From Luminiphilus sp. (GTDB lineage Bacteria; Pseudomonadota; Gammaproteobacteria; Pseudomonadales; Halieaceae), in the NCBI GenBank assembly GCA_029242325.1, contig JAQWUD010000043.1:1-33318 (forward strand): a DNA stretch of 33,318 bases, given 5' to 3'. Of this stretch, positions 5,778 to 10,687 are shown one piece after another (the first letter of the stretch is position 1; each line of letters begins with the position of its first letter). Under the pieces are notes generated by a model, which was given only the letters and a program-made list of their open reading frames with translations, was not told where the DNA came from and did no database searches. The position numbers were made by a program, and so were the translations under genes.

Positions 5778-7154
5778 TTGGAGTCGGTGAAACCTCAGGA
5801 TTCGGACGTTGCCCGGATTCGCATGCAACCCCAATCCGTTGAGGCGGAGCGGTCTGTTATTGGCGGCATTTTGCTGGCACCTGAAAGCTGGGATGCCATC
5901 GCTGAACTGGTCGACGCCGGCGATTTTTATCGTCCTGAGCACCGCGCTATCTTCCGTCAAATCGCCTTATTGGTGGATCGGAACGAGCCAATCGATGTCA
6001 TCACCGTTGCCGACCGGCTCCTTGTTACGGGAGAGCTCGATGCGGCAGGTGGTCATACCTACCTTGCCGAACTTGCTGAGCAAACGCCAACAGCTGCCAA
6101 TGTCCGCGCTTACGCGCGCGCCGTGAGAGAACGCTCGCTGCTCCGAAAACTGATTGGCGCAGCGCAGGATATTGCAACAGCAGGGTTCAGTCCGGAGGGG
6201 CGAAGCGCCGATGAGCTCGTTGATGAGGCGGAGCGGCTCATCATGGCAGTCTCCGAGAGCGGGCCTAAATCAGGTGGGCCTCAAAGCATGGCTCCGCTCC
6301 TGACTGGCGCGTTGGAGCGGATTGAAGAACTCTATAACACCGGCGGTGAAATTACGGGATTGACGACGGGTTTCATTGATCTGGATAAAAAAACCTCGGG
6401 CCTCCAGCCTTCAGACCTGGTGATTGTGGCGGGTCGACCTTCGATGGGCAAGACCAGTTTTGCCATGAATTTGGTGGAGAATGCAGCGGGAAACACGGAT
6501 AAACCCATCGTCGTATTCTCCATGGAGATGCCCGCTGAGCAGCTGGTGATCAGAATGCTGTCCTCACTCGGCAAGATCGATCAATCTCGTGTGCGAACCG
6601 GTAAATTGCAGCAGGACGATTGGCCCAAGTTGTCCGCGGCGATGGCCAAACTCAAAGACAAGGCGATTTTTATCGACGACACGCCTGCTCTGACGCCCAC
6701 CGAGGTCAGGGCTCGAGCCCGGCGCCTCGCCAGAGAACACGGTGATCTGGGCATGATTATGGTCGACTATTTGCAGTTAATGCGTGTGGCCGGTACTTCT
6801 GAGGGCCGCACGGCCGAAATATCTGAAATTTCGCGTAATTTGAAAGCGATTGCGAAAGAGTTCCGGTGCCCTGTTGTTGCACTATCTCAGCTGAATCGGG
6901 CGCTGGAACAGAGACCCAATAAGCGGCCCGTCAATTCTGATCTCCGTGAATCCGGTGCCATCGAGCAAGATGCCGATGTGGTGATGTTTATCTACCGGGA
7001 CGAGGTTTACCATGAAGACTCGCCCGATAAAGGCGTTGCTGAGATCATCATCGGAAAGCAGCGTAATGGCCCAATAGGGACGTGTAGGCTCGCGTTTCAG
7101 GGTGAATTCACCCGCTTCGAAAATCTGGCAAGAGATGACTATGCCGGTTATTGA
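5778..7154 (+). CDS. dnaB: Replicative DNA helicase DnaB
   Basis: A 458-residue DnaB, the hexameric 5'-3' helicase of the replication fork. An N-terminal DnaG-interacting domain (about 15-120) is followed by a linker and a RecA-like ATPase domain. The Walker A is G-R-P-S-M-G-K225-T-S, the Walker B is M-I-M-V-D-Y-L-Q-L-M, and S-D-L-R-E-S-G-A-I-E-Q-D-A-D lies near 395. The start is TTG at 5778 with AGAAGG at 5765-5770; an ATG at 5823 would remove residues before the conserved P-Q-S-V-E-A-E. No intein is present. Its neighbours include a lambda-P-type helicase loader on the opposite strand. Confidence 0.97.
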   Translation: MESVKPQDSDVARIRMQPQSVEAERSVIGGILLAPESWDAIAELVDAGDFYRPEHRAIFRQIALLVDRNEPIDVITVADRLLVTGELDAAGGHTYLAELAEQTPTAANVRAYARAVRERSLLRKLIGAAQDIATAGFSPEGRSADELVDEAERLIMAVSESGPKSGGPQSMAPLLTGALERIEELYNTGGEITGLTTGFIDLDKKTSGLQPSDLVIVAGRPSMGKTSFAMNLVENAAGNTDKPIVVFSMEMPAEQLVIRMLSSLGKIDQSRVRTGKLQQDDWPKLSAAMAKLKDKAIFIDDTPALTPTEVRARARRLAREHGDLGMIMVDYLQLMRVAGTSEGRTAEISEISRNLKAIAKEFRCPVVALSQLNRALEQRPNKRPVNSDLRESGAIEQDADVVMFIYRDEVYHEDSPDKGVAEIIIGKQRNGPIGTCRLAFQGEFTRFENLARDDYAGY

Positions 7155-7225
7155 GGGCCGAATTTTCCGTTTTAATCATCCCTGCATCCTGGCGCGCTGA
7201 ATAGGGTTATGAAGTGAGGGAGCGG

Positions 7226-7579
7226 ATGCTGCCCATTAATTTTTTTGCCTTGCTCGACATGTTGGGGGGCGACACGCAGCGCGTGAGCACGCTGCTGCAA
7301 ACCTTCTTAAAAGAGCTTGCCTCGGATCTGGAATCGAGTCAGCTTGCGCTGGAGTCTGGTGATATGGGGTCTCTGCGAAAGATAGCGCATCGCGTAAAAG
7401 GTACCAGCGCCAACCTGCATGCCACGCTGGTCTCGGCGGCGGCACGTGAATTAGAGCAGGCTTGTATCGAAGGCACTGCCTCAGCTGTTGCCGCCACGCA
7501 GCGTGTGATGCAAGAGCAAGGGGAAATCTTGATGGATGCGATCCGTGACTGGCAACAGCGGTTGGCCACTTCGGCCTGA
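7226..7579 (+). CDS. Stand-alone Hpt (histidine phosphotransfer) protein
   Basis: A 117-residue single-domain Hpt protein. It has the typical A-H55-R-V-K-G-T-S-A-N motif with His55 as the expected phosphoacceptor, in an all-helical sequence. Such proteins relay phosphate between a hybrid sensor kinase and a response regulator. No kinase or regulator is nearby, so the partners are elsewhere. The start could be GTG at 7214 (121 residues) or ATG at 7226. I prefer 7226 because AGGGAG (7217-7222) lies just upstream. It is convergent with the next minus-strand gene. Confidence 0.85.
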   Translation: MLPINFFALLDMLGGDTQRVSTLLQTFLKELASDLESSQLALESGDMGSLRKIAHRVKGTSANLHATLVSAAARELEQACIEGTASAVAATQRVMQEQGEILMDAIRDWQQRLATSA

Positions 7580-7598
7580 TCAGAGGCCGATCTCTTTT
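7571..7598. terminator. Hairpin between convergent genes
   Basis: TCGGCC (7571-7576) and GGCCGA (7585-7590) form a stem around an 8-base loop, followed on the plus strand by TCTCTTTT. It overlaps the stop codons of the Hpt gene and of the lambda-P-like gene and could serve as a shared terminator, best for the plus strand. Confidence 0.4.
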
Positions 7599-8257
7599 CT
7601 GAGCCGCGCGAGATGGGTCGCTTGCTCCTCGGGGCTGGGCACTGTTTCTTCTGGCGGTGAAATACTGACCCGCTCGGGTCCTTTAAGCGTCTCTCCTCGA
7701 GCGGCTCTACTCACCCAGCGCTCGTAATGCTCTCGGAACACGGGCCAGGTTTTGGCCTCGGGCTCGTTTGCCAGGAAAAACCAATTGCTGTCGCGACCCG
7801 CTAGATACACCGCAGGGTGCTGCCATGACGCCTCCACTTTGGGTGAGGGGGCAAGGCAGGCCTCCCGGTAGGCATCATAGGGTGACGGCAAGCCCAGGTC
7901 ACTCAAGGCGTGATGGCAAGCGTCAATCATCCTATTTAGGGTGGGCAAATAATCACTGTTTTCGATCGCATGTTGCGCGGCGCGCAAAATTACTGCAGTG
8001 GGATAGGCATCCAGCGCATCCAGCCACAGTCGCTTCACTTGCTTGACCTGTTCGGCGTCACTCCACGCAGCGTAGTACTGGTTATGGTAGTTCAACCGAA
8101 AGAGCGCAAATACCTGGTTGATGGCCTCGACGGCCTGATTATCTGGGGGAGAGGTGGTTTCAGTTAGCCCAGCTGGTGTCGGTGAGGTCATCGTTGAGGC
8201 TTCGGTCTTTTGAACGATGCCCCGAGCCAGTGTTGCTGCGTCCTGCTTCTCCGCCAT
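7580..8257 (-). CDS. dopE: Phage lambda P-type DnaB helicase loader (DopE-like)
   Basis: A 225-residue protein whose body aligns by eye with lambda replication protein P. It matches at A-I-N-Q-V-F-A-L-F near 43, the region of about 65-170, R-G-E-T near 185, and an ending H-L-A-R-L-R-K-E-I-G-L resembling the end of lambda P. Lambda P binds host DnaB and delivers it to the origin. A chromosomal, domesticated lambda O/P pair (DopC/DopE) has been proposed as a third kind of bacterial helicase loader; that this gene is DopE is my inference. The ATG at 8257 has a strong purine-rich SD (complement of 8264-8273) and overlaps the upstream gene by 98 bases. An internal ATG at 8191 lacks an SD. No integrase, capsid or lysis genes are nearby. 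Confidence 0.75.
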   Translation of the reverse strand: MAEKQDAATLARGIVQKTEASTMTSPTPAGLTETTSPPDNQAVEAINQVFALFRLNYHNQYYAAWSDAEQVKQVKRLWLDALDAYPTAVILRAAQHAIENSDYLPTLNRMIDACHHALSDLGLPSPYDAYREACLAPSPKVEASWQHPAVYLAGRDSNWFFLANEPEAKTWPVFREHYERWVSRAARGETLKGPERVSISPPEETVPSPEEQATHLARLRKEIGL

Positions 8258-9218
8258 GTTGGTCTCCCTCTCCTGCAGGCCGGCACTGGCGCTTGACGTG
8301 TTGCAGGAATTTACTGTTCCAAGAGGTGTGTACCTCGTTACTGTCGACCCAGTACATCACAAATTCGGGCAACAATGCGCGCGCTGACTCCTCACTAATG
8401 CCAGCGAGGCGCAGCGTATCGTAGACCGCGGAATCGGGTTGCCAATTGCGTGGTATGCGAGTGGGTTCGGTACTGTGGTGCATCTGGCTGGTGTGTCTTA
8501 GCCAGCGGCGACGCACATGTTCTACAAACCGGCTATTGATTTCCTTTGGTGCCCCGCCGCGCTCGCTCCAATAGAGCACGAACTCGGACCTGACAGATTC
8601 AGCGAACTCCACATCGATATCCGCCTGAATCAGAATATCCAGCGCATCTGCACTGGGTTGCCAATCCCGTCCAAAGGACGGAGGGGGGCGCACCTCGAAC
8701 GCCAGCCGCGGCGGCTGTTGTTGTTGCCAGCGCCCGAGTACATGTTGCCGGAACTGAGTGTCGATCTCTCTTCCAGGTCCCGGTACGAAGCTGCTTTGGG
8801 CCTCGCGAATGGCATTTTCTGGGATGCCGTGATTCAGTGTGAGGAGCTCTATTAAGGCATGACTGGGCACCCAGTCAGGTTGTTGGGTTACCGTGTTCCT
8901 TGTGCTGTCTCCAATGATGGTGGGCGTCTCTGCTGCGGCGGTGTCTGCCACTCTCAAAATGAGTTGATTGGGTCCGCTCTGCGCCGCGCGAACCAAAATG
9001 CCCAAAGCCACCAGCTTTTCCGTCAGCAACTCAATATGATCCACGGACCAGAAGGGCAGAGACTGATGCAAGGAATTCAAATCAAAGGTCGCCCAGTGGT
9101 GGCCTGTGAGGCGCGTCCCCAGCTTTTGCAGTAGCACCGCTTCCTCAAGCCCAATTGTCGCCGCAAGCTCCGGTGAAAACGTGAGTTGTCGATCGGGGAT
9201 GAGTGAACCAAATTGCAT
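8160..9218 (-). CDS. Triple DnaT-like-domain primosomal protein
   Basis: A 352-residue protein with an N-terminal winged-helix-like domain (about 1-95; begins M-Q-F-G-S-L-I-P-D) followed by three copies of a DnaT C-terminal-like unit. Each unit has the pattern W-x-P ... F-x-x-(Y-W) ... F-x-x-H-V-x-x-(R)W. They begin near D-W-V-P, D-W-Q-P and N-W-Q-P, about 60-65 residues apart; the first is the most diverged. DnaT of E. coli binds ssDNA and helps load DnaB in replication restart. The tail after about 305 is Gly/Arg/Ser-rich and overlaps the next gene. The start at 9218 is chosen because the reading frame further upstream runs toward radA and lacks family resemblance. With the lambda-P-like gene it forms a probable helicase-loading operon and may be the DopC-type partner. 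Confidence 0.75.
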   Translation of the reverse strand: MQFGSLIPDRQLTFSPELAATIGLEEAVLLQKLGTRLTGHHWATFDLNSLHQSLPFWSVDHIELLTEKLVALGILVRAAQSGPNQLILRVADTAAAETPTIIGDSTRNTVTQQPDWVPSHALIELLTLNHGIPENAIREAQSSFVPGPGREIDTQFRQHVLGRWQQQQPPRLAFEVRPPPSFGRDWQPSADALDILIQADIDVEFAESVRSEFVLYWSERGGAPKEINSRFVEHVRRRWLRHTSQMHHSTEPTRIPRNWQPDSAVYDTLRLAGISEESARALLPEFVMYWVDSNEVHTSWNSKFLQHVKRQCRPAGEGDQHGGEAGRSNTGSGHRSKDRSLNDDLTDTSWAN

Positions 9219-9307: not shown

Positions 9308-10687
9308 GTGGCCAAGGCAAAGACAGCATTTGTTTGCAGTGACTGCGGTGCCGATTTTCCAAAATGGCAGGGTCAATGCGGTGAGTGCAACGCGTGGAAT
9401 ACCTTATCCGAGATACGGTTGAGCTCGGCAGCGGGTAAGACAGTAGTGACGTCTCGCGGGGGCGCTCGTTCGGGGTTCGCGGGCAGCAAGGCGGCGGTGC
9501 AACGACTGGAAGAGGTTGCGGTTTTGGACCTCCCCCGGCTTGCGTCGGGTTTTGAAGAATTCGACCGAGTGCTGGGTGGTGGCTTTGTTCCCGGGTCGAG
9601 CATTCTCATCGGCGGGCACCCGGGAGCGGGCAAGAGCACCTTGCTGCTGCAAACCCTGTGCCGCCTCGCAGCACAGCACAGTGCGCTGTACGTCACCGGC
9701 GAAGAGTCGCCGGAGCAGATCGCCCTTCGCGCCAGCCGCCTCAACCTGCCCGCAGATCAGCTTCAGTTGCTCGCTGAGACCGATGTAGACGAAATCTTGT
9801 CCTCGGCTTTGACACTGCAACCGCGGATTTTAGTTGTTGATTCCATTCAGGTGGTGCATAGCGAGACACTGACGTCAGCCCCGGGAAGCGTATCGCAAGT
9901 GCGGGATTGTGCGGCGCAGCTCACGCGCTATGCCAAGCAGACGGGCACTGTGTTGATTCTGGTGGGGCATGTCACGAAAGACGGTAGCTTGGCCGGGCCC
10001 AAAGTGCTTGAGCATATGATCGATTGCTCCATTTTGCTTGAGGGTGATCACGACTCTCGTTACCGGACTCTCCGAGGGCAAAAGAATCGATTTGGCGCGG
10101 TGAATGAGCTGGGCATCTTTGCCATGACCGACTCGGGCATGCGCGAGGTCACCAACCCGTCGGCAATTTTTCTTGATCGCTCAGAGCATACGGCACCGGG
10201 AACAACGGTTGTTGTTGTGTGGGAGGGTACCCGGCCGCTGCTAGTGGAAATTCAAGCGTTGGTAGACGACAGCTCTTTGGGAAATCCGCGACGGGTGACA
10301 GTGGGGTTTGAGCAAAATCGATTGGCAATGTTGCTGGCTGTATTGCATCGCCACGCCGGGATTCATGTTGGGGATCAGGATGTTTTTGCCAATGTGGTAG
10401 GCGGCGTCAGGGTGACGGAGACTTCTGCCGACTTGGCTTTATTGCTGGCGGTAGTGTCCAGCCTGCGAAACCGTCCACTTCCCAGAGATTGGGTGGTTTT
10501 TGGTGAGGTCGGGTTATCAGGTGAGATCAGGCCTGTGGCAAGTGGACAGGAGCGGATCACAGAAGCCGCCAAGCACGGCTTCAAGGTCGCCATCGTGCCC
10601 AAGGCCAACACACCTCAAAAACCGCCGCCCAACCTAAAGGTGATTCCGGTGACCAGGCTCACAGAGGCGCTTGAGGCCTGCGGGTAG
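9308..10687 (+). CDS. radA: DNA repair protein RadA (Sms)
   Basis: A 459-residue RadA, the branch-migration helicase that processes recombination intermediates. It has a Cys4 zinc ribbon at the N-terminus (C-S-D-C ... C-G-E-C), a RecA-like ATPase core with Walker A G-G-H-P-G-A-G-K109-S-T, the RadA-specific K259-N-R-F-G motif, and a Lon-protease-like C-terminal domain. Length equals the E. coli protein (460). The start is GTG at 9308 with GGAG at 9298-9301. It is divergent from the DnaT-like gene, with 89 bases between start codons, so the two share one control region. Confidence 0.97.
   Translation: MAKAKTAFVCSDCGADFPKWQGQCGECNAWNTLSEIRLSSAAGKTVVTSRGGARSGFAGSKAAVQRLEEVAVLDLPRLASGFEEFDRVLGGGFVPGSSILIGGHPGAGKSTLLLQTLCRLAAQHSALYVTGEESPEQIALRASRLNLPADQLQLLAETDVDEILSSALTLQPRILVVDSIQVVHSETLTSAPGSVSQVRDCAAQLTRYAKQTGTVLILVGHVTKDGSLAGPKVLEHMIDCSILLEGDHDSRYRTLRGQKNRFGAVNELGIFAMTDSGMREVTNPSAIFLDRSEHTAPGTTVVVVWEGTRPLLVEIQALVDDSSLGNPRRVTVGFEQNRLAMLLAVLHRHAGIHVGDQDVFANVVGGVRVTETSADLALLLAVVSSLRNRPLPRDWVVFGEVGLSGEIRPVASGQERITEAAKHGFKVAIVPKANTPQKPPPNLKVIPVTRLTEALEACG

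Follow-up and report, generated by a model that had tools for sequence, protein, structure and literature searches.

A chromosomal lambda-P-type helicase loader and its DnaT-domain partner in Luminiphilus, with a proposed C-terminal docking tail

Every bacterium must place its replicative helicase on DNA. In 2017, DopC and DopE, a domesticated pair of the lambda O/P type, were reportedly proposed for bacteria that lack both dciA and dnaC/dnaI, and DopC is said to have derived from lambda O in that study. A further article treats DopE as a loader family (PMC13326638), and another reports the order Cellvibrionales to be without either known loader type (PMC5109545). Within the open-licence literature searched, we found no experimental study of the DopC/DopE route and no paper on C-terminal tails that name a helicase loader.

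The Luminiphilus locus described here resembles the pair reported in 2017: its loader is of the P type and its partner of the O type, both are chromosomal, and the genome is without detected dciA and dnaC/dnaI; no decisive difference is apparent. The DopC/DopE system is already known, and the new part is the tail rule. What we describe for DopC/DopE are three DnaT domains, a lambda-O-like tail, a conserved gene overlap and pairs in other orders. The locus shares with lambda O/P the family and fold of P, the O-P gene order with an overlap, and the O tail DLTNTDW (lambda O ends DLTNTDWIYGVDL). Unlike lambda O/P, this pair is chromosomal and lies between radA and dnaB, its genes overlap by 98 bp instead of 4 bp, and DopC has DnaT domains and no match to the phage O head PF04492. 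As in E. coli DnaT/DnaC, a DnaT-domain partner gene immediately precedes a helicase loader gene; DnaC, however, belongs to a different family that was not found here, and DnaT ends IPPGFRG whereas DopC ends DTSWAN. DciA has the same presumed role of DnaB loader, but its sequence is unrelated and has no match here.

The dopC-dopE locus and its two proteins

The window, by which we mean the whole stretch of 33,318 nucleotides that was analysed, belongs to a host assembly of 2.76 Mb in 51 contigs that is 96.5% complete. The initial annotation had described a two-gene minus-strand unit near dnaB, and we indeed find two overlapping ORFs: dopC (P0002; 8160-9218, minus strand; 352 aa from the ATG) upstream and dopE (P0001; 7580-8257, minus strand; 225 aa) downstream, with the overlap at 8160-8257. 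On one side of the unit lies dnaB (5778-7154, plus strand; PF03796 E=3.7e-109, PF00772 E=7.7e-34), the presumed cargo, and on the other a RadA-like gene (9308-10687, plus strand), whose name is our reading of its domains. That the flanking genes are core genes, as had been stated, is true of those tested.

A genome-contig search with the loader returned Luminiphilus and other Halieaceae as its closest relatives. We took as close relatives the best 80 of the 114 loci from this search, mostly assigned to Halieaceae or its genera, some to Gammaproteobacteria only and one to Alteromonadaceae. In these best 80 of 114, dopC and dopE are side by side without exception (80/80), which argues that their pairing is not due to chance; RadA was seen in 78 and DnaB in 75, and the overlap measures 86-101 bp in 79, with start codons picked by a script. 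Such an overlap, 98 bp in this genome, is long by the standards of bacterial genes.

The second gene had been read as a relative of phage lambda P, and both family and fold uphold this reading. DopE matches the Pfam family Phage_lambda_P PF06992 significantly (E=1.8e-9, 38 bits for a cut-off of 26), with residues 45-192 aligned to profile positions 2-160 of 162, and the family phrog_109, 'P-like helicase loader' (E=1.4e-21, residues 21-223). An AlphaFold2 model was obtained from 40 aligned sequences as input (mean pLDDT 79, pTM 0.60). Its three top-ranking Foldseek matches are the lambda P chains Z, Y and V of 9oa1 (E. coli DnaB complexes), with E=5.2e-5, 9.7e-4 and 2.9e-3 and a probability of 1.00, yet with whole-chain TM values of just 0.36-0.41. 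The SPP1 loader G39P is also among the fold matches; its TM to the target is 0.79, although its E value is 1.8. Across 40 sequences 46-81% identical to DopE, 41 positions are invariant. PDB sequence searches with the single proteins of the locus found nothing, and neither protein matched PF05258 (DciA) at E up to 1. In a tree of 105 loader cores the chromosomal loaders form roughly three groups interspersed with phage sequences, an arrangement that long branches make unsure and that is compatible with a single domestication as well as with several.

The claim of a DnaT-like partner beside the loader is likewise borne out, since DopC matches the DnaT DNA-binding domain PF17948 with E=5.4e-46 over three stretches. 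In the AlphaFold2 model of DopC, a winged helix is followed by three helical domains and then by a disordered tail. The predicted winged helix covers residues 16-90 (8949-9173), and the first DnaT-like helical domain, the most divergent, was placed by our reading of the model at residues 120-167 (8718-8861). The second and third DnaT domains, at 8481-8669 and 8280-8459, match PF17948 with E=2.8e-18 and E=4.8e-22, respectively. A candidate C-terminal docking tail, DLTDTSWAN, proposed from its conservation and from the motif common to the end of lambda O, is encoded at 8163-8189, on the minus strand like the domains. PDB matches of the model were mostly winged-helix regulators, every one with E above 0.05 in Foldseek, and no kinship was detected between the winged helix and phage O heads (hhalign probability 4%). 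We also considered lambda-ori-like iterons within dopC and found just short two-copy repeats, taken as chance.

Other helicase loaders and distribution of the pair

In this assembly, PF05258 gave no match to dciA. A second profile, for which 30 dciA sequences from within the order were used, was likewise without a match both here and in five other sampled genomes of the family (6/6). According to an excerpt on Gammaproteobacteria, dciA sits between secA and lpxC (PMC5109545). Here, an M23 peptidase gene is all that the lpxC-secA interval contains, separated by 92 bp from lpxC and by 68 bp from secA; the usual dciA site is therefore present but empty. For dnaC/dnaI, the genome has three PF01695 (IstB/DnaC) matches, which proved to be DnaA, Lon and RecG. 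Little weight can be put on one negative family search, since the PF06992 search of the genome gave no match although dopE is present there (hmmscan of the protein detects PF06992). For this reason, the case for the absence of dciA rests on the tuned profile together with the empty site.

The initial annotation had taken the locus for the housekeeping helicase loader of this bacterium, a view that an intact dciA or dnaC in the same genome, or the lack of a significant match to the lambda P family, would have contradicted; neither gene was detected by PF05258, the tuned profile or PF01695, and the PF06992 match is significant. We consider the annotation correct in what it observed and probably also in the role it assigned, given the PF06992 family, the fold and the lack of detectable dciA, dnaC or dnaI, with the pair presumably loading DnaB at oriC.

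Among 145 genomes of the order, the P-like family (phrog_109) was found in 94 and DciA (order profile) in 45; two have both (G054 and G130) and eight, by subtraction, have neither. We read 80 stretches out of 73 of the 94 P-like genomes. A DopC-DopE pair is present in 71 of these 73, all without a dciA match, and the two exceptions are G054 and G130, which have dciA. Thus, the pair and dciA are mutually exclusive in the order genomes read. By our own profiles, 72 of the 80 stretches contain the pair, 34 of them together with radA or dnaB, while six lack DopC and two, L210 among them, lack DopE. This distribution agrees with Cellvibrionales lacking both known loaders and with the DopC/DopE proposal. 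One order genome (G113; L207, L208) has ten P-like matches, presumably prophages beside a resident pair.

At the level of the class, DnaT domains occur in 8 of 276 genomes, the present one included. Five class genomes outside the order (G155, G193, G308, G388 and G400) have a DnaT-domain gene adjoining a P gene. G155, G193, G308 and G400 gave no PF05258 match; G388, on the other hand, has the pair and dciA together, which counts against exclusivity. P was found by phrog_109 in four of these five genomes, and the P gene of G193, which it missed, was detected by our own profile. No DnaC was seen in the class loci read. A 0.9-Mb genome (G180, L459) encodes a DopC-like protein that lacks the tail; searches of it for a P-like gene and for DciA gave no match.

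C-terminal tails and the neighbouring loader gene

The end of DopC reads DDLTDTSWA in 38 aligned proteins, in which D344, L345, D347, S349 and W350 are invariant. For the counts, we used the pattern [DN][TRVSCYQL][SDN]W within the last 40 residues, chosen post hoc with the sequences already seen. It occurs in 79 of the 80 close relatives (best 80 of 114); in the one miss (L025), a residue of the motif is unknown. Among the remaining DopC-type proteins of the order, 71 of 73 have it. The two exceptions, L208 (ending GEGWINDLGDF) and L210, are both extra copies of P-type pairs; this second set counts 73 DopC-type proteins and not the 72 pairs because the P of L210 was found by phrog_109 and missed by our own profile. 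As controls, the pattern was present at the ends of 17 of the 5047 other ORFs with 100 aa or more in the same loci, and in 16 of 1099 inner DopC windows. We summarise the partner tail as a conserved D-[TR]-[SD]-W. Outside the order, all five DnaT-domain proteins beside P end in D-x-x-W, three of them fitting the narrower pattern of the counts, and the single DopC-type protein without a nearby P in other orders of the class is also without the tail.

Since the tail falls within the dopC/dopE overlap, the TPAG motif at the N-terminus of DopE could be a shadow of the tail coding. Codon-position diversity in the overlap did not distinguish which frame is constrained, and pairs without an overlap were used in place of that analysis. 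The tail is kept in four of the five such pairs (L077, L196, L198 and L202) and absent from L208; therefore, the tail peptide itself seems to be selected.

Phage O proteins offer a comparison in which the gene next to O varies. The O protein of Pseudomonas phage PAJU2 combines a PF04492 head with the end NDTSWAVGLEQDLF and has no match to DnaT. Among 34 viral loci sharing this one O head, the tail is present in 11 of 11 with P next and in 0 of 23 with DnaB next, counts that are not independent, as clustering at 70% identity leaves two clusters for P and six for DnaB. Beside DnaB, these O proteins have other conserved ends, which also bear a tryptophan.

We also read a set of named phages, 18 of them drawn from the 263 records whose O head is of the lambda type, together with lambda, PAJU2 and SC_8, where the tail was first noticed; QHHSV-1 was excluded from the counts. 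With P next, the tail occurs in six of seven (lambda, PAJU2, SC_8, 4C10, SEN34 and phi80); the exception is the lambdoid phage phiES15, in which P adjoins O yet the tail is absent. With DnaB next (n=9), the loosest pattern occurs once, in P22 O, as DRDW placed 21 residues from the end and inside DnaB-type sequence, and with other next genes (n=5) the tail is absent. In three Suso-type phages, the record contains a DnaT-domain protein that lacks the tail, but no P. L349, L351, L352 and L353, four viral contigs that may be fragments, encode DopC-like proteins ending in D-x-[SD]-W, again with no P in the record. Phages that have the DopC tail and in which no P of their own was found may borrow the DopE of the host. 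The protein of L350, whose P neighbour is weak, lies outside the pattern with its GGDW end; four poor sequences were left out of the P model.

A different end accompanies DnaC-type genes. Gifsy-2 O (L363:1601-2578) ends PDKTIPTGFRG and E. coli DnaT (L373:2979-3518) ends PDSQIPPGFRG; each precedes a DnaC-type gene (dnaC itself in E. coli), and the two have PDxxIPxGFRG in common; for DnaT, the IPxGFRG tail was checked in the K-12 strain of E. coli alone. Among the 80 viral relatives of Gifsy-2 O, DnaC and the tail occur together in 73, the tail with no DnaC seen in five, and DnaC without the tail in two; the relatives are 76-100% identical, and the counts are not independent. In phages N7 and RCIP0098, a DnaC-type gene also comes next (PF01695 E=1.8e-18 and 4.1e-19), and their O proteins end PSWAQE and PSWARD, not IPxGFRG, which speaks against a simple rule. 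DnaC-type tails are thus not uniform. Nevertheless, two scaffolds, the PF04492 head and the DnaT domain, each bear P-type and DnaC-type tails with the matching partner.

Proposed mechanism and alternative explanations

We propose, with a probability of about 0.72, that a domesticated phage O/P-type module (DopC/DopE) replaced dciA as the chromosomal DnaB loader and that the tail of DopC docks DopE-DnaB. Judging from its family and fold, DopE would bind the DnaB ring and open or position it as lambda P does. The domains of DopC suggest that it marks single-stranded DNA via its DnaT domains and that its winged helix may contact duplex DNA; in an excerpt on E. coli DnaT, the C-terminal domains of that protein are described as forming filaments on single-stranded DNA (PMC13377028). 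The tail D-L-T-D-T-S-W-A would dock DopE-DnaB and deliver it to the DNA so marked, as its conservation and the partner swaps in phages suggest. This proposal adds a specific short contact to the DopC/DopE route and would tie that route to lambda O-P.

Docking of the loader would be the simplest account of the tail. By extension, and with slightly better than even confidence, the C-terminal peptides of O, DopC and DnaT may be interchangeable labels, each specifying the helicase loader. A code can be formulated on the same sequence comparisons, in which P/DopE would be denoted by [DN]-[TR]-[SD]-W, one kind of DnaC by IPxGFRG, and the phage's own DnaB by GWxADxDYL or FDWLI...KVxEG; we hold it to be somewhat more plausible than its opposite. 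The cases of phiES15, L208, L210, L350, N7, RCIP0098 and G388, together with the clustering of the phage sets, caution against overconfidence in the tail rule.

Whether DopE is the partner of the tail can be questioned. The tail could instead bind DnaB, DnaA or another part of the replisome; the O proteins beside DnaB also have conserved tryptophan-bearing ends, although of another kind. We regard such a target as unlikely, while taking it more seriously than any of the other alternatives. Lambda O, Gifsy-2 O and E. coli DnaT all work with the DnaB of an enterobacterial host, and still the tail of lambda O differs from those of Gifsy-2 O and E. coli DnaT in a manner that matches P and DnaC, respectively; the tail therefore appears to follow the loader and not the helicase. 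The end of lambda O is reported to be essential, the reported truncation point lying, by our own count, just after the tryptophan. On the other hand, a 76-residue tag behind the end of lambda O is tolerated (PMC6022878), which counts against docking by the tail.

The role of the pair in initiation is open to two further objections. The pair might serve replication restart only, in the manner of PriA-PriB-DnaT, with another factor loading DnaB at oriC; DopC does have DnaT domains, and an excerpt describes E. coli DnaT as acting in restart (PMC13377028). However, dciA and dnaC/dnaI were all not found in this genome, the pair and dciA exclude each other in the order genomes read, and DciA is an initiation loader in Pseudomonas aeruginosa (PMC5109545), so that we find restricted service in restart improbable. 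Even less credible, to the point of being very improbable, is a dciA hidden in the missing part of the assembly (96.5% complete, 51 contigs), the pair being a prophage remnant. Family searches can miss genes, as dopE itself illustrates, but all six sampled genomes of the family lack a DciA match, the place where dciA normally lies is present and empty, the tested flanking genes are core genes, and the loader keeps 41 positions invariant across 40 sequences that are 46-81% identical to it.

If the tail rule were true, it could explain how DnaB-DnaC is brought in by E. coli DnaT during replication restart. A cryo-EM study of 2026 describes the recruitment of DnaB-DnaC by DnaT as unknown and tentatively suggests the N-terminal domain, the opposite end of the protein (PMC13377028).

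A further gene, recognised by a domain match as encoding an Hpt domain, lies between dnaB and dopE (7214-7579, plus strand). It was detected by tblastn in 31 of the 80 close relatives (best 80 of 114), mostly in the closest ones.
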